A stretch of DNA of 64,000 nt, taken from Cymbomonas tetramitiformis (Eukaryota > Chlorophyta > Pyramimonadophyceae > Pyramimonadales > Pyramimonadaceae). The notes under the pieces are model-generated. The model was not told the origin of the DNA. It searched no databases and saw only the letters and a program-made list of their open reading frames with translations. The stretch's first letter is position 1. Each line of letters opens with the position of its first letter. The DNA is taken from NCBI GenBank assembly GCA_001247695.2, contig LGRX02034649.1, forward strand, positions 1 to 64,000, written 5' to 3'. The translations under genes were made by a program, and so were the position numbers. This document shows, one piece after another, positions 45,101 through 64,000 of the stretch.

Positions 45101-48100
45101 TTTTACCAGCTTGAGCTCTCCAACAACTCAGCCTCGGTCGGGTCTCACCTTTTCTGGGAGTACAAGACGAGCGCGTACGAGCCAGAGTGTGTTGATTGCT
45201 GGCACAAGCCGAACGACACTGCCCTACTGGCCACCTCTAGCGTGCAGTACGCCATCGTCCAAGGGGATGCGGTGGTGGATGGGGCCGTGCTACAGACGGT
45301 CTCTGGGATGACCTTATCGCCCACGCTGTCATACCGGGCCTTTGGCACGCGCCCCTCACCTCCCCTTGCACGCAACCCACGCCCTCCTCGCTCACTGGTT
45401 CCAATGATACATGCGCGAGGCCCCGCATGCTGACACGTGCGCGAGGCGCCAGATTGCTGACACGTGCGCGAGGCCCCGCATGCTGACACGTGCGCGAGGC
45501 CCCGCATGCTGACACGTGGGCGAGGCCCCGCATGCTGATACGTGCGCGAGGCCCCGCATGCTGACACGTGCGCGAGGCCCCGGATGCTGACACGTGCGCG
45601 AGGCCCCGCATGCTGACACGTGCGCGAGGCCCCGGATAATGACACGTGCGCGTTTTTCTGCCGATGCATGCTTGTATTCGAAATGCTTAAGACAGCAACT
45701 GCACGTGATATGAACGATTTCACTTGCAGTTGTACACAGATGTTTGGTGAAACCAAACCCAAAGATCTGGACAGGCGTGGTCCTATCCGTCCGCCTGTCC
45801 AGAGATCCCACCGGGGGGGCTGGGTCGGGAAGCTTAAAATGAATACCGAAATTGCAGTTCACTCAGATTGGAACAGTTCCAACTGATTGCAGGAATGTTC
45901 TCCGCCGATTGTTTTATCAGGAATGCTAGCTAGGATGAATGCAGCTATGTCACGGTCCCGGCATGAATGTCATAACACTGGCACCGATGTCATACTCAGT
46001 ATCATAGGCAAAACCAATCGGTCCGTCGATCTGAGAGATCAGATCGGACGGTGCTGAATATCGCCTGCTGTAATCCGCATAAAAACACTTGGAACCCATC
46101 GCCTCTGCCGCTGAATTCCATCGCTTATAGCTAAACTTTTTCTGCCGATGCATGCTTGTATTCGAAATGCTTAAGACAGCAACTGCACGTGATATGAACG
46201 ATTTCACTTGCAGTTGTACACAGATGTTTGGTGAAACCAAACCCAAAGATCTGGACAGGCGTGGTCCTATCCGTCCGCCTGTCCAGAGATCCCACCACTC
46301 TCTCCATAAAAGTATAGTAGGATACAAGTCCAGATAGAGAAGCAGTAATAAGATCCATTACCCACTGGGCACACCACTCATAACATCTCCAATAGAGCCA
46401 GAGAGCCCATAGGGGCGTACCACTCATAAATATCTCCAATAGAGCCAGAAAGCCCATAGGGGCATACCACTCATAACCACCAACTCAGTACACCGGCTCA
46501 AAAGAGCCTACCATTCACAATCACCACCACTGTCGTCCCCATCAATGTCCCGCCAGCCCTCAGAGGAACCTGACAGCACACCATCCGACTCCGCAGCGGC
46601 ATAGCCCGGCAAGCCCATCACCTGAGCCCGGTACATGTCGCACACATAGTGCGCCACCAGAGAGCCCTCCTCCGCAGCAATAACCTGCTCCATGCGGGCC
46701 AAGCACTGCAGGATAGCACCGCTCGTGGGAGGCTCATCTGAAATGCGACACCGTCACCCCCTCGGCCTCAGCCCCCATCTGCTGCAGCGCCCGCAGAATA
46801 GTAAACCTGTGTGTAGTGAAATAGAGGTCCATAGCGACTTTAGGCGTGTACCAACCACCCACATCCGAAATAACCCGGTGTGACCAACCATAAGTCCATA
46901 ACCACTGGCCGAGTGACTTTCTCGGGGAGCCACCACCGAAGTGACCCGCATCCCCCGAGTCGGGGAACGCCCTGGCATAGGCCTTCTGATATGCACGGCC
47001 GAAGCCTGAGTACGGGCCGGGATACCAGCCCGAAGCACCCTTAGGCGCACAGCACAAAAGCGAGCCAGACGGCAGCCCTTCACGGATCACATACTCCTCC
47101 AACAGTCGCACCGGAGCAACTCCCAATGCCGGGACGTTGTTGGGGATGTAGAACCGTAGGGGGGTTGCCGCCACCGAATGCACAACACCCGGCCCTCCCA
47201 GTAGAGGTCATAGTACACCCGCAAGCAGCGCACAGCCCCCGGCCGCAGGCAGCCGAAGGTCTGCAGCATCATGTTGAGCTGCTGGTGTCTGCCCGACCGT
47301 TGACCCAATGAAAAGCCAAAGTGAAATATGCGGTACCACTGAGCCGGAGTCCAAGCCCGCTTGGCCTTGGACGGCCGCTTGTAGTTCTTGTCCAACACCG
47401 TCAGAAGCGTCCGGACCGAAGGATGCTTAGTAGGCACCCGCAAATAAAGCGGGGTGCCGTCCTCCTCCAGAAGCGGGGCCTCAGCCAGAGTCTCACACAT
47501 CTCGAGATGCCATGCAGTCACATCACCGAGATAGCTCCGCACCGTGGACGAGTCGAGCCTAAACGGCCGGACCTCCACGGCATAGGCAATATACCCCAGC
47601 ACGTCCCGCACCGTCGCCGGCAAGTCATGCCCCGCAAACTGCACCAGGAAGTCACGGAAGTCCCGGACCCCCCGGCGCTGAATAGCCGACGTGCTCTCCC
47701 GGATACGCATGGCCATCATGCCGGAGACCAGACTGGTCAACGCACCCGCCGAGGGGCCCGACCAGCCAGCGGCAGCCGCCCAGCGCTCACCGCAGAGGAC
47801 CAGCGCCGTGAGCCCCGGCTTAACACCGGAGCACGCCCTGCACAGAAGTCGGGTGCATCGTAGACAGCAGCACACGATCTCGCCGGGCGTCACCAGACAA
47901 CACCGGCACTCCCCCCCAAGGGCCACGGTGACCAGGTACAGCAGCTCCCGCAGCACCTCGAGAGCTCCCCCTGGAAGGCAACAGCGACGGGAAGTGAATA
48001 ACCACCACCGGCCACCTGGTCGGCCCCCGGAAGGTCCTCTCAGCGCCAAACCCATAAGTGCCGTCCAAGCGCGCAAAGTGCTCCCAGGCCGGGGTAGTGA

Positions 48101-51100
48101 ACAACTCTGTGCGAGGGGGGTAGTAACGGAGAACACGGCCACCCTTCACCAAATGCCACCAATCATAAGTGTCCCACACCGGCAACACAAAGGTGCCCGC
48201 CGTATCGCCCGGCGAACCCCGCTGACACTGAAGGAAGTGAAGCAAGTAAGCTCTGATGAGGTCAAAGTCCGGATTAGCATACACGTGCTCCCCGGCCAAC
48301 TCCCGTGCGAAGAAGCTGTCCACCTCAGAACAATAACGAGGGAGATGCGCATTGGTACCCACGGGGTCGGCCCCACCGTCCAGGGTGAACGGCCGCGGCA
48401 ACACTGACTGAACTGAGAGGAACTCATCACGGCGATACTGCCAGTCCGAGTAGTCCCTCCGGCGGACATACCGGGAAAGCCCATCGGACAAACCATTCTC
48501 CACTCCCGGGATGTGCTCACAGGCCAGATCCAGATCATACAAGCGAGCGGCCGCGAAGATACGCTCACCGACCTCCCAAAGGGCCGGGGCCATGGTGCCT
48601 TGCTTGTTAACGAGCGACACCGTGGTGGAATTGTCACTGCGGAAAAGCAACCGCTCACCACGGTGATCTGGACCCAGAAGCTCAGCTGCCGAAGCCGCTG
48701 TACTCGCCTCACGGAAGTTGGAGCTCTTGTGCGGCGCACACTGGTCAGGCGGGAAAGACAGGATATGCCTCCAGTCACGGAGAGCAATCCCCCCCTGCCA
48801 ACCCGAAGCATCCATAGTAGGCGCCGAGATGCCCTCTGGAGTCTGCCAATGCTCCGTGAGGTACTCACGAGTCCCGGAATGCTGACCAAGCCAAAGACCA
48901 GATACCTCGGGCTTGCCCTCATAAAGGTAGTAGTGCCGTGACGGTTTACCATTCATGTGGTCCACAAAGCGAGCCAACTCACCACGAGCAACATCACTGA
49001 GATGCACCATGACAGTTTCAGCCCACTGCAGCTTGGCAGGTGTCAAAGCCACGAGAGGGTTCACAAAGGCATCCCGATCCGCATACACCGGGGCCAACAT
49101 ATTCTGGCCACCAACAATCAGGGGTGCCACGAACTGGAGTTTGCCCACCACGCTGGCCAGCTCGCGCCTCGGTACCTGGGAGCCCGGAGGATACTTCCGG
49201 AGCAACTCCCACACTGCGGCGCTGTACTTCTCAGCCCGGGATCTGGACAAGGTGACTGTCTGGCTGTCCGAATGGATCTCCCGACCCACATATTCCTTCA
49301 CCAACGCTGGCAAGAAGGTCTTGCGCTCCGAGGCCTGCACCCCGAGCAAGGCCATCTGATCGATCTCGGCAAAGGCACGTCGGTCGCTCTCGGCCTTACC
49401 CAAGTCACTGTCATAGATACTGTGACCGTCGTCCACAAAGATACCAGTGCAAGCAGACCGACCATCGGCGTGCACGGTACCATTCAGCACCCGCTTGAAG
49501 ACCTGGGCCATGTCGGCTTGGTGTTTCGGTGCATCGGAGAAACCGAACATGTCATAGCGAGCCCTATAGAAGGACTTGGACACAGGGAACTGGACTCCCA
49601 TATAGTCACAATGCGGCTGCCATCTGGGATTGTTCCAGAAGGCGTCACTCAAGTCCCAGCCACCCTGGAGACACCCAGGCCGCTGCAAGGAAAGAACTGG
49701 CTCCAGATAGTCATAAACTGCCGGAGCTGGGGCCATGGCCTCGTTCACCCGAGAGGTGCGGGCATTCCAGATGTTCCTGAACTTGTCCTTCACCGGACAA
49801 TACAGGGAGCCAATCTGGGTGGTACACCAGGGCTCATAATGAAGAGGGCCCTCAAGGACACCTCGCTCTGCGGACCGGACCAGATCAGCCTCCGACCTGT
49901 CGGAGTGCTCGTAACAGGTGGGGTGGTTGTCCCGCTTGAAACGAGCGGGCTTAGCCACAAAGTGCATACGGTGCCCCTCCCGACAAGCCTGCCGGAGGGG
50001 CTCCTCAGATGGCAAGAACCAGTCATATAAGGCCTCCGTGTACCGGACACCGGGGGCATAGAGGCCGTCACCGGTGTCATGATAAGTCATCTGCCTACTG
50101 GCATGCTGCTGCCGCGCCTTCGGAGAAGAGAACTTCCGAGGGGGGACCTTAAGTACCAGAAGGCGGTGATAACCATCCGCTGTGTAAACCACCAGATAAG
50201 TGTGGCGGGCACCGAAAGCCCGCAGGCGAGTCCACTGGAGGCGCTCCCGAAAGGCGTACTCATCTGGTGTAAGTGTACAACCAGAATATAGCCGGGGTCC
50301 AATGGCCAATAACTGCCTCTTGACCACTTGAGCACTGTCCGTGTACGGCTCAAAGGTCAGAGTACCAGTCGGAACTGGGCACCCCTGGGGGGTGCCATAC
50401 CAGTAGATAAGCTCCTTGAGGAGCAGAGTGTGAAGAGAACGAGCGGTGGAGAGCTCCACAAGTGCAGGGGCTTCAGAAGCATTCACAGGTTGCTGTGTTG
50501 AGCACAGAACTGCAGTTGGTGTAGTAGAGGTAGGGGGTGCAGGCTGTGTGTCCAAACAGACAGAATCTCGACCAGACACCGAACCATCAGATGGCTCAAT
50601 CAGAGGAGCTGGTACTTGAACAGACTGTTCAGGGAAGGCAACCATAATGATATCACCTGCACATTGCTTGCTAACATCTCAGTAGTCACCCGTGTACTCG
50701 CACGGAGACATAAGGGGACCAGAGAAAGCGTGTTTCTTCACACACTTCTTCTTCACACCGTCCACCTTCTTTACCCGGTTGCACGCCCGAGTAATCGGTC
50801 CAGTGTGGGTGTAATGACCGGCATAATAACTGTGCTCCGCACTGCCGCATAATGGGCAAGGGCGCGAAGCCTCAGGCGGAACATCAGGGATCACCGGAGA
50901 CTGCGGCAGCTGCTCACTGGGCTGCGGGGGGACCGGAAATAAACCCGCCCCCGGCGCAACCGAGTTACCCAGCAATCCCATACGCACCAACACCCGCTGA
51001 AAGGCCATCGTTGGGAAAGTTTCCATCACCAGACGCCGCAGGTTTTCACGGCGCGCCGAGACCGTAGTTAACGCCTCTGAGCCCATCCGAACCAGGTCTC

Positions 51101-54100
51101 GATCCTCCTTGAGGGCGCGAGAAAAAGGCTGCTTAGTCCATCTCGCCGTCACATAGTATGACGTGACCAAGACGTAAGTAGCGTCGAACGGCACGTTGGG
51201 CATCTCGCTGCGCACGTAATCAACGAGCTCCATCAGGAACTCATAGCGCGACACAATCAAGACGGCCGTGCGATAATGGGACTTGAACGGACTGTCGGGG
51301 TCGCTGCTGTAAGCGAACACCCCCAGACCGCTGCTGCGGATCCGCTCCCAGTCCTCGCAACGCCGACGGCACCAGTTGAGGAACCGGTCAGCCCGCGGGA
51401 ACTGGAGCTTGTCCTTCACGCGCAATGACGCGCCCTCCTGAACGAGGTCACCGCCACGCTCTTGAAGGGGCGTGTACTGCAAATCAGTACTCGCGCCCAA
51501 CGTGTCAGACTGCATCAAACGCTGCATCTGTCTTTTAGACGCAGCGTCCGTGCTGTTGCCTGAATAGTTCTCCAGCATCTCGCGTCCCGGATACGAAGGA
51601 CTGGCCGGATCACGCAGAGTCAAGCCGTCAATCGCGCCCGACACAAGATCCCCCAAGCCGTGTGCAGTGACGGTCGCGTGCATAAGCTCTTCAAAGGTGG
51701 GCGTGTTACCTCCAGGCGCAGAGGCCAAGGGCGCTGGTACGAGTGTCGCAGACGGTGTCGGAATAGCAGCTGCAGTCGTTACGGAGATAGGCTGAATAGA
51801 AGGAGCGGTTACGTGTCCAGGTTGCGCGTGGATACCAGAAGAACCGAAACGCCCCAGTGCTGACTCGCGTTCCGCTACGATTCGCATGTCACCAAGTTCC
51901 GGAGGGGGCTCAACGCGCGCGACGGGCACGACCGTCGATTCACCAAGACCAGGAGGGATAGAGGGCGAAGAAGTCAGCGGAAGGCTGATGCCAGATGTCC
52001 GAAAGGCAGGAGGCACATATTTTGCCGAAACGTCGCGGGGAAGTTCCGCAGAGACTGCCGGAGCCACGTGGACAGGGGCGGTTAACGCAAGTGGAACTGG
52101 AACGGAGGGAGGAACGGGGAGGCTACCCGACCGTGCTGCACTGAGTTGCGCCAAAAGTTCAGCTCTCACTGGGCTACCCTGCGGGAAAACAATTTCTGAA
52201 TCAGCTTCACTAGCACCCCGTGATCCACCAGATAAACCATCAGCACGAGAGCGAGTACGAGACAACGTCCCCAACAGTTGGGTGCGCATGTCAACCAGGT
52301 GTCGTTGTTCAGGAGCCAGAGTCATCGGAGTCGCAGAGTTTGTAGTAGAAATAAAATCACCGTCCGCCAGCTCATCGTAGTCGCCCATAAAAGCCAAAGC
52401 TGGACCGTCGAATTCAGAATAAGTTTCCAGCAATCGGCAATACGCCTGGTGTGTCGGCAGTGTGACATGGAAAGGTAGAACCACCAGGTATGCGACATCT
52501 TCTTGAAGCTTGCGCGCGGAAAGGTAAGTCATGAAAAGTTCCGGAAAAGGAAGGAAACAATCGGTGCAGATCAAGTGACTAGCATCACCACGGACGAAGG
52601 CGTAGTTACCCACGTCAAAGAACTCATCCAAGCAGCCTTTATGAATCACGGCTGCGCAAACGCGGCAACGGACAAAACTCGGAGCGGAATCTTCGCACGA
52701 AATCGCCTGACAGTACGGTAAATTACTGCGGAAAAAACAGCTGTTCTGTCGTAGTCGGTGTTGAGTACGGTGAACCATGTGAGTTGATACTTTATTGATA
52801 CGACAGACCTTCTGGCCACAGGTCCCATACGCACTGGAATCTGGTTTCGTCGTGTATTGCTCAAACGGCTCGGTAACACCACAAAATCCGTAAGCAACGC
52901 GACCCGGGCATCCAGCTAAGTTTCCCGTGCCACGAAGCTGAGATAACCGCTGACCGTAGGCAAAAGAAAGAATCTCCTCAATAATCGAAGGAATTAAAGG
53001 AGCCTCGACGTCGATCAAAGCACGGGACTCAGAACCAACGGAGACCTGCGACATCATCGTAGCAAAGGCCTGTACCAAAGAAGCTTCGCACGGTTCGCCC
53101 CGACGAGCATAGGCCACCACAGTGTCAACATGTGAAGCAAAGTGAAGGATACATCCCACCAGGTTAGGGTCTGCAGGAGCAGTCAACTCGTAACCAGAGA
53201 GTTTCTGTTCCAATCGTGATAAGTCCAGCTGTGACGCAGAATCAGTAAAAATTCCAGTAGAAGGTGGGGAGAGAGGCATGACGGCAAAGTCGGAATTAAT
53301 ACCAAAGCTTAAAATGAATACCGAAATTGCAGTTCACTCAGATTGGAACAGTTCCAACTGATTGCAGGAATGTTCTCCGCCGATTGTTTTATCAGGAATG
53401 CTAGCTAGGATGAATGCAGCTATGTCACGGTCCCGGCATGAATGTCATAACACTGGCACCGATGTCATACTCAGTATCATAGGCAAAACCAATCGGTCCG
53501 TCGATCTGAGAGATCAGATCGGACGGTGCTGAATATCGCCTGCTGTAATCCGCATAAAAACACTTGGAACCCATCGCCTCTGCCGCTGAATTCCATCGCT
53601 TATAGCTAAACAGGCCCCGCATGCTGACACATGCGCGAGGCCCCGCATGCTGACACGTGCGCGAGGCCCCGCATGCTGACACGTGTCAGGTGTGCGGGAC
53701 TGAACAGACTTCTACGGGAACATAGCAAACCTTCCAATGCCCGGCGGTGTCAGCATCTCCTCCGAGACTGCGGTCCTCACCGGGAATACATTTGCCTCCT
53801 ACGCCAGCAACCACGGCGCTGATTTTACCAACCTGGTGGTGTCCGGGGAGGCGGGCGCAGCCGTGACGCTGGTGTTCCGCCCGCAGGCCAATGAGTGGGA
53901 GGTCCTGAGCACGTCGGTGCAGCTGCAGCTCTGTCTTCCCGGCGACGTGTACTCCTCGGAACTGTACTGTCAGCCCTGCGAAGCTGGCACTATTAAGTTT
54001 ACGGTGATCCTTCACTGCCCCTCACCCCCTCCCTCCCACCACCGTCGGATCCACCTCCCAACCCCTTGTCTTTCCCCCTCCTTCGATTTGTGTCCACGGC

Positions 54101-59812: not shown

Positions 59813-61100
59813 ATGGAACATGCGCATGTGTTACCGTGATAGTGACATGGATAACCGCAGGAGGTATCCTCCATAATATATTGGTTAGATCCTGGATCGT
59901 CGCATAGTTTGGTAGTACCCCATCGAGCCGTGAAAAGCGCCGCATATGTATGTGACGTGTTAGTCATGTACATGTAAGTCGTGGTCCGTGTTTACTATCG
60001 GATGCCTCGTTCGTTGGTACATGCCAGTGCTTTGTAGTAAGACAGAGTGTATTTAAATCAGCACGACCTCAATCAGCATTGATATGCCATTGTACTGATG
60101 CATAGCTTTCTAATATACTTATAAAAATGAGAATTATAAATCAACCCTGGCTTAATATTCTAATAATATACTTATAAATGTAATAATAATATTTGGTTTC
60201 TTAGTTTCGCATGCGGCATCGATATGCAGCCCATCTCAGCCCATCCCCGTCATAATGAATAAAATGAATACAATCGGTTTGTGTGTGATAGGCATAGCTG
60301 GTCAGTTCGTTCGTAGTCATAAAGCGCACGTGTTGTGTAGCCTGTAATATGATGGTGATAAAGTACAATTGTATATTTTGTAGCCATAATGCGCCGATGC
60401 CGCGTAGCATATTATGACAGCGCGTTGAATATCGACATCTAAATGTTTTCGTCGTGTTATAGGAGCTATTCGATCGTGCATGGATAATGTACATTGGGCG
60501 ATTCGTAGCAACCAATGTTGTTCGTTAAGGTCGCCATGAGCTGATGCGGTGCAATGAGATGTGATGTAAGCATCAACGAGAAGCATTCATGCACGATCGA
60601 TGACGGCCATTCTCCAATCGGACAGTATAATTAGGTCATTCCTAATTATGACTGCAGGGTCGGAGATTGCTTGCGGTGACATATCGATCCGCGGATAAGC
60701 CTGTTGCCGATATGAAAGGAGCGAGACCGCTTAGCATTTGCTACTACACGGGTCATGAGCAAACTACAGTCCAAATGCATTTAAAACTCCACCAGAAAAT
60801 ACTTTGGATGTGCGGGTTGTTCCTTTTGCTTCGCAGCGTGGCTGCTATTCGTGAACGCGTGCTCAGCACAGCATTCTATCCTTGACCAGCATCCACTGTT
60901 ATAAATGCTATGTTCGCGCCCGCAGCCTTCACCCAATTTGTTTGTGATATTCATTGCGGATGCGACCTTCCCGTTATTGACTTTGGTCGTGTATGTTTAG
61001 AGTTTCGGTTCCGCGTTTGCATTGAATTTGTATAGCTGCGCAAAGCTCGGGCCTGCCCGTCACCAGTGGGTGGAGTATGCCCGGTATGTCCATCTTCAAT
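59813..61100. other. Gene-free stretch
   Basis: AT-rich DNA downstream of the large gene with TAATATACTTATAA repeats near 60.1 kb. I see no gene, RNA or mobile element here. Confidence 0.5.
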
Positions 61101-61647
61101 ATCAAACAGCAGATGTTGAAGATATGTGTGCGTGGAGACACTGAAGCCATGGCGTGTTAGGGCGGTATAGCCAACTGGTGTGCATGATGACAGCAGTGAG
61201 GCTCATTGTATATCTGTAGGAGTCTCCACTCTTGCTTTTCTCTTCTTTACGGTTTCGGACTTATTCTATCTACACTTATTAAACGACCGCACGAGGTATG
61301 ATTACGATTGGTCAACTATCGGACTTCGGTTTCGTAAATCCTTCTAGTTATGCTTTTGCTTTCAAGTGCATGCTTTCAATACACAATATACAGCAGTTAC
61401 GGCTCTTTACTTTTCATGTTACAATTCTCAGTTCAGTTCTCATCTCCGAAACTGGTTACACTTAGAGTTCTTATGCAAGGCTCATGAACTCTTTCCATAA
61501 CTCTACTGTACTGAGTACTCCGTACAACAGGCTAGGCACCTCACATCAACATCATTCTGATCGGTCCTACTGTACTCCGTACTGAGTACTCTTGCGTTTT
61601 ATACTTAGCCGTTTTTCTTGCTCTTGTGCTTGCCTCCTAGCACAACT

Positions 61648-61658
61648 CCCCCCCCCCC
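61648..61658 (-). other. Polypurine tract (plus-strand primer site)
   Basis: Eleven consecutive G on the minus strand, directly upstream of the probable 3' LTR start. This is the position and composition of a retroelement polypurine tract. Confidence 0.6.
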
Positions 61659-62029
61659 TTAGGGAAGGTCACGTCCACGCTGACCACGTCGGACCAGTAA
61701 AGTTTTTATACAGATCTTCTACTGTTGCTCAGAATGATTATACAGGTCTCAGCCGCCTGTTGTCTGGGATGACATTACACTTCCCAAGACACACCGCAAT
61801 AAGGAGATCAACCTCTTAAGCACAAGGGTCGGCCTCTCACCGGTCTGCCATCTGCACTACCAGGCTCCCCCAAGGCTCGAGGTCTCACATCCATTACCAC
61901 GCTCAAGGTTTTAAACCTTCCAACACAGTACACTTACAGGGGATGACAATAGGTTTGCCAATTACCTGACAGTTCTCGGGATGCCGGCCCGGAGGAAAGG
62001 TTTTAAACCTTCACCGCCTCCTCGGAGTG

Positions 62030-62350
62030 CGTAGAGCTTTTACCCAGATCTCCAACTGCTGCCCGGTCGTGCCAGGTCCGGAGCCAATGCTCTCGTGAAA
62101 TGGATTATACAGATTTCCACCTGTTGCCTGGTCGCACCGAGGCTAGAGCCACTGCTCGGTTGGATAGATTATCCAGGTTCTCACCTGCCGCCTGGTCATA
62201 CCGAGGCTTAGAGCCACTGCTCAAATGGATTATACAGATTTCCACCTGTTGCCTGGCTGTGCCGAGGCTAGAGCCACTGCTCTCTCGGATGGATTACCCA
62301 GGTTCTCACCTGCCGCCTGGTCTCGCCAAGGCTGGAGCCACCGCTCTTCC
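62030..62350 (-). repeat. ~62-bp tandem repeats between methyltransferase stop and LTR
   Basis: About five units containing, on the plus strand, GATTATACAGATTTCCACCT, GTTGCCTGGTC and GAGGCTAGAGCCACTGCTC. The units alternate between a TTTCCACCTGTTGCC type and a TTCTCACCTGCCGCC type. They lie in the 3' untranslated part of the element; function unknown. Confidence 0.85.
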
Positions 62351-62368
62351 CGACGCTCCCCAACGCTC

Positions 62369-64000
62369 TCAATCGCTAAGACCACTCGCGTCAGATTCCC
62401 ATCCGCCCTCAGGTATGATCGTCACTTCAGCTCGTACTCCCGCTAACGCTATCGGTTCCGGCTCAAACTCGGGCGGGTCACTCTCAACAACAGCTGACTG
62501 GACTAAAACGCTCATCTCGCTCAGATCCTTCCTGACAAGCAGTTCAGACAGGAACGCATGCACCTCTTCATGTAGGGTCAGGTTGTGGAAAAGCTGTTTT
62601 AACAGTGCCGACGGAATCCCATACAAATTCTCTCGCGCTCCCATGCCCTTCGCAAACACACCTCCGGCTCTCATCGCGCGCCCTCCCTGCGCTACCTTCT
62701 CGTGCCTACCGTTCTGCCGGAAGAACTCGCAAGGCGTGTCGGAATCGCACACTCGCAAGGGTGTGCGCAACGGAACGTTGGTCCAGATGTGCGTGGGCTT
62801 CCTGTATGCGGTCCCGTATTTACAGTACGTGACGAGGTGCGGAGCTGGTAGATTGCTCATGCATCGACGCGTGTGCAAACCGTGGGGCTCTCTTCCCTTC
62901 GGGTTCTCAATGAAGTATGCTTCGGGCCTCAAGTACCGGATGATCTCCAATGTCCTACGAACTCGCCTGTCCGCAGCGCGCAAATCTCGGATGCCTACCG
63001 TCTTCGCCTGGCTGTACTCTGTACAAGGTGGGCTAGCCCAGACTACGTCGAAGTGTCCTGGTCTGAACTGTCGGTAGTCCCATCGCATGATATCCTCGCA
63101 ATGTGTGGGGCCCCACTTGGGCTGAATGTCTACGGCAACTACTTCGCTGTTGGGAAATTGCTTAGTGAACTGCCTCTCGACTGACCCGGTCCCACAAAAC
63201 AATACGAGAATCTTAGACTGGCCGACTGGCTCCTTCTCAAGTGCTGCGGCTCCGTTGACTGGCGGCAGGGTGCTCTGAGCAGATACTCTCGCGAAAGTTC
63301 CTACTTCCTCATCAAACCTCTCCTCTGGCACCCATGGCATTGCTCCGTCTACCTTGAGCTCCTCCGAGAGCGTGGTCCATACCGCTCCTGCGGACTCGTC
63401 GCGCCTCTTACGGACCCTAAGCTTCTCTCGCTCCACTATCTTAGCCTCGATCCTCTCAAACTCCAACAACGCCCGGTTGGGAACGCCGGGCCTGCCGGCT
63501 CCGTCCCACTCCAGATCCTCTCGGGTCTTCCACTCGTTCTCACTGCGGGGCATTCCTGTCCACTTGACCAGGTGCTCCGTCCACCTCCTACCCTGACGCT
63601 GGCGCGTGCGCGAACGCTCCACCCTCTCGACGTGGGTTTCCTTGCGCCCGCTGACGTCCAACGGAGGAGGGGGAATCTCCTTAGCTCTCTCAACAAAGCG
63701 GCTGCTCGACTCTACCGGCGAAAGCCGGTCCACGGTAAACACATCGTGCACTTTCCACTGCTTAGGCGTCTGCAACCTATAGGCCGACGGTGCGCCTCTA
63801 TCGCTCGCGGGAAGGGCCATCTGCCTGTCGCTGTGAAAGACTTCCAGCACCCGAAGGGGCCCGAGGCGCTTCTTAAGCAATTTCTTGTGCAACCCGCGGT
63901 CGCCCGGCTGGGTGAGGTACGTGGCGTCCACCCAAACCTCATCGCCTACTGCGTAACTCCTGGACTTGTGACGCGCGTCGTACTGGGCGATCTGCTGCTG
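62369..64000 (-). CDS. Polyprotein end: integrase C-term, chromodomain, C5 cytosine methyltransferase
   Basis: Open from the window end (64000) to TGA at 62369; residues numbered from codon 63931. The integrase tail includes IAQYDARHKSRSYAVGDEVW (upstream of residue 1), KKRLGPLRVLEVF (20-32) and WKVHDVFTVDRLSPV. The chromodomain follows at about 98-160 (HLVKWTGMPRSENEWKTREDL). After a charged linker, a C5 DNA methyltransferase begins near 240: motif I LVLFCGTGS (242-250), motif II VVAVDIQPKW, motif IV catalytic Cys303 in ASPPCTEYS, motif VI ENP (342-344), then VTYCKYG...RKPTHIWTN in place of the usual Q-x-R-x-R region, as in short phage-type enzymes. The predicted product methylates cytosine in DNA, targeted by the chromodomain or integration complex; that role is inferred. 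No frameshift is visible. Confidence 0.85.
   Translation of the reverse strand, partial: QQQIAQYDARHKSRSYAVGDEVWVDATYLTQPGDRGLHKKLLKKRLGPLRVLEVFHSDRQMALPASDRGAPSAYRLQTPKQWKVHDVFTVDRLSPVESSSRFVERAKEIPPPPLDVSGRKETHVERVERSRTRQRQGRRWTEHLVKWTGMPRSENEWKTREDLEWDGAGRPGVPNRALLEFERIEAKIVEREKLRVRKRRDESAGAVWTTLSEELKVDGAMPWVPEERFDEEVGTFARVSAQSTLPPVNGAAALEKEPVGQSKILVLFCGTGSVERQFTKQFPNSEVVAVDIQPKWGPTHCEDIMRWDYRQFRPGHFDVVWASPPCTEYSQAKTVGIRDLRAADRRVRRTLEIIRYLRPEAYFIENPKGREPHGLHTRRCMSNLPAPHLVTYCKYGTAYRKPTHIWTNVPLRTPLRVCDSDTPCEFFRQNGRHEKVAQGGRAMRAGGVFAKGMGARENLYGIPSALLKQLFHNLTLHEEVHAFLSELLVRKDLSEMSVLVQSAVVESDPPEFEPEPIALAGVRAEVTIIPEGGWESDASGLSD

Follow-up and report, generated by a model that had tools for sequence, protein, structure and literature searches.

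C5 cytosine methyltransferases encoded by retrotransposons are known from two algal genera. In Klebsormidium nitens, the long terminal repeat (LTR) element KnitGypsy-Dnmt3 holds such an enzyme in its gypsy Pol frame, where it is under purifying selection with a Ka/Ks ratio below 0.2, and the enzymes SymbioDIRS-Dnmt3 and SymbioLINE-Dnmt are encoded by retrotransposons of Symbiodinium, the former belonging to the Dnmt3 clade; the same article (de Mendoza et al. 2018, PMC5890265) reports that retrotransposon DNMTs methylate CG sites de novo, and in its available text the word chromodomain does not occur and a Dam-type domain is not named. DIRS retrotransposons are described, as far as the available text goes, with a Dam-type methyltransferase domain (PF05869) in the pol frame together with reverse transcriptase (RT) and RNase H (PMC3783388), and DAM is assigned to DIRS elements and DCM to Ty3/Gypsy and DIRS in the published text available. 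Chlamyvir chromoviruses and chromoviral pol genes have been reported in Cymbomonas (Gyaltshen et al. 2023, PMC10675990); these genes share with the present element the Ty3/gypsy pol, the chromodomain and the host alga, and the word methyltransferase is not found in the text available from that source. We describe here an element located at the edge of a 64,000-nucleotide stretch filed under Cymbomonas tetramitiformis (GenBank assembly GCA_001247695.2, contig LGRX02034649.1, positions 1 to 64,000), referred to below as the window. What lies at this edge is the 3' terminal part of a chromovirus-like LTR retrotransposon of the Ty3/gypsy group, whose integrase is followed in the same frame by a chromodomain and a compact C5 methyltransferase, and whose relatives carry a second, Dam-type methyltransferase in the same polyprotein. 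Little doubt is attached to this identity and architecture. Proteins and the profiles or alignments used for searching are designated below by P and A numbers, respectively.

The polyprotein frame (Table 1) ends with a stop codon at 62371-62369 on the minus strand and stays open for 543 codons; among 2000 sequences simulated at matching length and composition with a first-order Markov model, the longest open run reached 308. Its domains are ordered as integrase tail with SH3-like region, chromodomain and compact C5 methyltransferase. Pfam, motifs and alignment bear out the original prediction that a single frame joins the end of a gypsy-type integrase to a chromodomain and a C5 methyltransferase. 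Cymbomonas proteins P0001-P0003, named cytosine methyltransferases in UniRef, match the frame at 95-99%, so that the window very probably comes from the green alga Cymbomonas tetramitiformis. The window contains only the end part of the integrase module; it is relatives alone that reveal the catalytic core, H2C2, RNase H and RT. The extent of the SH3-like region was set by P0007, residues 449-648 of which align to window residues 1-200, while the Pfam SH3_Tf2-1 match (1.1e-5, 25.9 bits, below the cutoff of 30) covers residues 70-96 only. The chromodomain is recognized by Pfam Chromo (2.9e-6, 27.5 bits, cutoff 25.1) and lies C-terminal to the integrase in the window frame and in relatives. The three aromatic cage residues are kept in 11 of 21 aligned relatives; the Cymbomonas rows P0005, P0011 and P0012 display R-W-L, an incomplete cage like that of the window.

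The C5 domain is matched by Pfam DNA_methylase PF00145 (8.7e-5, 22.5 bits, cutoff 22) and by the PHROG DNA methyltransferase family phrog_757 (1.9e-16). The motif-IV cysteine and the ENP glutamate are invariant across the 45-row alignment A4, and the FCGTGS, PPC and ENP motifs, initially proposed as catalytic from the window alone, do align with C5 enzymes. The structure model of the domain displays a pLDDT of 90.8 and all 50 PDB matches listed are C5 enzymes. The C5 methyltransferase fold and motifs I, IV and VI are present, and cytosine methylation of DNA is predicted. Three cysteines and one histidine are also found in a small region following the C5 core (residues 393, 418, 424 and 433); three of these are invariant in the 45 rows and Cys 424 is kept in at least 90% of them. 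They may bind a metal in what would be a minimal target-recognition region.

Table 1. Features of the retrotransposon end and of the adjacent DNA in the window.
Feature	Position	Strand	Remarks
Retrotransposon polyprotein frame, 3' part	62369..64000	minus	543 aa; 5' end beyond window edge
Integrase C-terminal SH3-like (Tf2-1 type) region, residues ~19-96	63713..63946	minus	extent from P0007
Chromodomain, residues 123-164	63509..63634	minus	Pfam; aromatic cage incomplete (T-W-M)
Compact C5 cytosine methyltransferase, residues ~261-476	62573..63220	minus	Pfam, PHROG, alignment A4, model, fold matches
Motif I, FCGTGS, begins residue 268	63182..63199	minus	
Motif IV, SPPC, begins residue 323, catalytic Cys 326	63023..63034	minus	
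Motif VI, ENP, Glu 365	62900..62908	minus	
KPTHIWTN, begins residue 401, in motif VIII place	62777..62800	minus	assignment inferred from place in domain
Tandem repeats, unit ~64 bp, 4 copies, directly after stop codon	62098..62347	minus	
Polypurine-tract-like AAGGGGGGGGGGGAG	61646..61660	minus	read from sequence

Integrase-chromodomain-C5 fusions were also retrieved among Cymbomonas, EukProt and metagenome proteins, the same order being found in P0005, P0009 and P0011, so that the check for the same fusion in other copies gave a positive answer in Cymbomonas and metagenome proteins alike. A scan of bacterial and archaeal contigs returned 32 loci, the best of which (L081) reaches 42% identity and the next 29%. 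L081 is an uninterrupted DNA frame of 1321 codons in which Pfam lists RNase H, Dam, H2C2, rve, SH3 and Chromo, and whose end is assigned to C5 by the A1 profile (313 bits). The contig (NHEN01000032.1) is filed under a Verrucomicrobiaceae metagenome-assembled genome (MAG); since a eukaryotic-type retroelement polyprotein sits there in a bacterial MAG, it is probably a binning contaminant. A search with the Dam region of L081 retrieved seven proteins (P0145-P0151) among 161 candidates. Four of them (P0145, P0146, P0149 and P0150, 2239-2298 aa) extend from the protease through C5, in the order protease-RT-RNase H-DDE integrase, P0148 (1627 aa) extends from RT through C5, and P0147 and P0151 end after Dam. 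PF00145 was not listed by Pfam at E 0.1 for the polyproteins found in this way; their C5 part scores 308-319 bits with the A1 profile. Aspartic protease, H2C2 and rve are listed by Pfam in relatives. The gypsy pol anticipated upstream of the fusion is thus seen in relatives (protease-RT-RNase H-integrase) but is not visible in the window itself.

In L081, P0145, P0146 and P0148-P0150, a Dam/phage-N6A-type methyltransferase follows RNase H and precedes the integrase, sharing its frame with C5. PF05869 exceeds its curated cutoff of 28.1 bits in P0016 (41.1) and P0147 (30.4) and stays below it in L081 (27.4) and P0151 (27.0), as well as in P0146, P0148, P0150 and P0036. P0145 and P0149 are not listed, yet they align over the Dam region and keep NPPF. 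The signature W[CF]NPP[YF] is kept in 8/8 full Dam pieces; P0036 has SPPY. When 144 further proteins and 175 window frames (319 sequences in all) were searched with a profile built from these eight pieces, the matches were P0016 (1.4e-29), P0036 (2.5e-17), P0021 (2.8e-6) and P0007 (4.5e-5), in addition to one frame of another window element (2.1e-11). Because P0036 (97.5% over 81 aa) and P0007 (88.5% over 200 aa) are close to the window element and match this profile, the family of the window element very probably carries a Dam-type domain too; in both deposited proteins the domain is only partial. P0011 and P0019, picked by eye as possible Dam remnants, fail at E 0.1 with the Dam profile and were not counted. 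Scanning with the Dam alignment A6 yielded 26 stretches, none of them from a relative. The nearest solved fold is PCIF1/CAPAM, an animal RNA enzyme methylating cap adenosine, with which the Dam-type domain shares its fold at 11-12% identity. The two methyltransferase domains match the PHROG DNA methyltransferase families phrog_111 and phrog_757, and adenine methylation of DNA by the Dam-type domain is predicted.

The conservation of the individual parts was expressed as mean identity among six elements (15 pairs, reduced to 10 for RT and to 6 for the protease and N-terminal parts). The values amount to 0.77 for RT, 0.76 for RNase H, 0.64 for Dam, 0.66 for H2C2, 0.82 for the integrase core, 0.74 for SH3, 0.67 for the chromodomain and 0.70 for C5, and the linkers RNase H-Dam, Dam-integrase and chromodomain-C5 reach 0.53, 0.43 and 0.37, respectively. 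The protease stands at 0.59, the C-tail at 0.31 and the N-terminal parts at 0.33 and 0.39. At the protein level, both methyltransferase domains thus appear conserved well above most linkers, the Dam-type domain being only moderately above the linker preceding it. The C5 distances follow those of the SH3-chromodomain part (r 0.925; 0/2000 permutations as high; 19 of 21 proteins had both parts). As the domains exceed the linkers in identity and C5 tracks the divergence of the SH3-chromodomain part, the fusion looks old and co-inherited.

The number of captures was addressed with two trees. For the first, the 326 proteins or loci with a C5 match were reduced to 205 near-complete domains and then to 105 upon removal of near-duplicates. 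All 28 C5 domains linked to integrase or chromodomain fall in one 60-row clade (SH-aLRT 90). The second tree comprises 70 rows: 27 linked domains (P0019, divergent and cut, was excluded), 38 stand-alone enzymes picked by length and start, and five IMG/VR sequences as root. The 27 linked rows all belong to one 34-row clade (bootstrap 98, SH-aLRT 81), which also holds seven stand-alone enzymes, the remaining 31 lying outside. The linked rows form no group of their own in either tree, stand-alone enzymes being mixed in. These topologies are probably explained by one capture of a stand-alone virus-type enzyme, followed by co-inheritance and by later escapes or hidden linkage, the transfer being taken to run from virus-type enzyme to element.

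A viral type is probable for the C5 enzyme. The closest predicted viral structure is a putative cytosine DNA methyltransferase of Tetraselmis virus 1 (A0A2P0VN45; E 1.3e-22, TM 0.84/0.87, 37% identity), which has the same compact fold and length as the C5 domain of the element but is a stand-alone viral protein of 218 aa. The A1 profile matched 4691 proteins among 7998 scored, of which the best 120 are covered here; among the matches listed, the nearest in sequence are compact stand-alone and element enzymes (38-71%). Annotated phages match the domain at 28.6-34.1% identity over 65-81% of its length, and a tailed-phage origin was rejected, the best annotated phages giving 33.9% identity across 72% of the domain and, for Inoviridae, 34.1% across 66%. 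Of the 'compact phage type' first suggested for this enzyme, the compactness and a PHROG match are retained, but among predicted viral structures a giant-virus protein comes nearest. IMG/VR contigs form a separate branch in both trees; as the IMG/VR scans with A1, A3 and A7 each yielded at least 80 loci, nearer giant-virus contigs may be missing. Scanning with the window frame itself produced no pattern match. A point weighing against a viral type is that the best solved fold for the C5 domain is DNMT3. An origin from a host Dnmt3 is nevertheless disfavored by sequence, the identity to solved DNMT3 structures being only 14-17%, and no DNMT3 chain was found among 30 profile matches at E 0.1. 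The independent capture envisaged in the original prediction gains credit here, since the acquisition looks independent of the published Dnmt3 captures. Compact C5 proteins also occur in a set of 23 members labelled Tetstr1, perhaps from Tetraselmis (P0143), and among transcripts of Prorocentrum minimum (P0090 and P0104), where they are possibly viral insertions or further elements.

Compared with the described systems, the element is a distinct variant of retrotransposon-borne methyltransferase. KnitGypsy-Dnmt3 is likewise an LTR gypsy element with a C5 enzyme in its Pol frame, but this enzyme is Dnmt3-related according to the available text whereas that of Cymbomonas appears to be of a compact virus type; the Symbiodinium elements are given there as DIRS and LINE elements of a dinoflagellate, unlike the gypsy element considered here. 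DIRS elements, as presented in the accessible text, resemble the relatives of the Cymbomonas element by a Dam-type domain placed after RNase H, but they rely on a tyrosine recombinase and lack a DDE integrase, an aspartic protease and a C5 enzyme, whereas protease, H2C2 and rve are present in the relatives. Searches of the open-licence literature turned up no account of a gypsy polyprotein that carries both methyltransferases. In the Cymbomonas assembly, three of the four scaffolds with more than 10,000-fold coverage match chromodomain, RNase H and cytosine DNA methyltransferase, the modal scaffold coverage being 21-fold (Burns et al. 2015, PMC5741210). The available text lists these scaffolds as repeat content and does not describe a fusion or a second methyltransferase. 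They probably represent this kind of element, which would therefore be present in hundreds of copies.

The explanation that we favor, by a modest margin of belief, is that of a family with an ancestral C5 capture and a Dam-type enzyme, both methylating the DNA of the element. A compact C5 enzyme would have been acquired, probably once and ancestrally, behind the integrase chromodomain, and the virus-like particle would contain both enzymes alongside RT and integrase. Newly made cDNA would be the target of the Dam-type domain, which sits close to RT-RNase H, and the C5 domain, being linked to integrase and chromodomain, would act either on the pre-integration complex or on the new insertion together with its flank. 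With such marks the copy could be taken for self DNA, or a tolerated state of chromatin could be established. That self-marking of DNA is the main role is put forward tentatively, with slightly less conviction than the explanation as a whole. A bolder formulation, in which an LTR lineage equipped with a kit of two chemistries, both of viral or phage type, stamps its cDNA and insertions as self in the manner of phages and giant viruses, is rather unlikely as it stands.

Several other explanations were weighed against methylation of the element's own DNA. Plant chromomethylase and the fungal DIM-2 with HP1 are cases where a C5 enzyme works alongside a chromodomain; both are host enzymes with other domains and a different placement of the chromodomain, which in chromomethylase is inserted inside the catalytic domain and accompanied by a BAH domain. 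In the window frame the chromodomain precedes the C5 domain instead, and BAH is absent from the Pfam matches at E 1. A mobile analogue of these systems, in which the chromodomain would read a histone mark and C5 would methylate the target so that insertions are steered to and kept in silent chromatin, is unlikely: the two domains do adjoin in one polypeptide, about half of the aligned relatives keep the complete cage and DIM-2/HP1 is among the C5 fold matches, but the cage is incomplete in the window and in three further Cymbomonas rows, and the Dam-type domain is left unexplained. The likeness to PCIF1/CAPAM brings to mind an action on RNA, where methylation of a cap-adjacent adenosine or of a tRNA-like cytosine would aid translation, packaging or evasion of RNA sensing. 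This is decidedly improbable, as both domains belong to DNA methyltransferase families (Pfam Dam and PF00145, along with the two PHROG families) and fold likeness reveals no substrate.

An antiviral function of retrotransposon methylases in general was proposed by Morozov et al. 2019 (PMC6338049, as far as its available text goes). Applied to Cymbomonas, whose genome contains many integrated viral elements according to the text available from PMC10675990, this published hypothesis would have the enzymes modify or silence giant-virus DNA to the benefit of the host. The fusion to integrase, however, speaks for the element's own DNA as the target; we consider such a counter-weapon very improbable. 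Hardly better placed is the view of both domains as inert passengers, or as structural extensions of the integrase without catalytic use, with which the decayed chromodomain cage in Cymbomonas would agree but not the kept catalytic motifs, nor identities of C5 and Dam lying far above those of the chromodomain-C5 linker and C-tail. Finally, P0017, P0019, P0027 and P0036 resemble gene models joined across decayed copies, as would be expected from an assembly or annotation artefact uniting unrelated pieces; with the window and L081 both being uninterrupted DNA frames and the same order recurring in other sources, this can practically be dismissed.

The remaining features of the window were also recorded. 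Following the polypurine-like tract, a TGTG at 61644 is a possible 3' LTR start. Self-comparison of 60000-64000 against the whole window revealed no second LTR copy, and CpG depletion, sought as a sign of methylation, is not seen in the window copy (CpG o/e 1.01). Split direct repeats occupy 45653-53611 on the minus strand: a 307 bp pair at 45830-46136 and 53305-53611 and a 160 bp pair at 45653-45812 and 46137-46296, both 100% identical. They surround frames of 866 and 941 codons in an A-ORFs-B-A-B arrangement as in Ngaro/PAT-like elements. In the second of these frames, a Dam-like stretch matches the Dam profile at 2.1e-11 and reads NPDF where NPPY would be expected. This class is unproven because Pfam lists no RT, recombinase or Dam in the element at 45.6-53.6 kb. 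The segment 56001-58000 is strongly skewed (GC skew -0.41, AT skew -0.40); long Pro/Ser/Leu-rich frames overlap on its plus strand, and the segment is perhaps a pyrimidine-rich repeat rather than genes.

The published retrotransposon C5 enzymes that were found are Dnmt3-type and belong to gypsy and DIRS elements of two lineages, whereas the enzyme described here is probably of giant-virus type and is fused to an integrase chromodomain. With two methyltransferases of different chemistry in one polyprotein, as observed in the relatives, the purpose of retrotransposon methyltransferases becomes testable. The finding suggests that genes move between giant viruses and retroelements of marine algae and, should the proposed working be true, a retroelement would have borrowed the self-protection strategy of DNA viruses.
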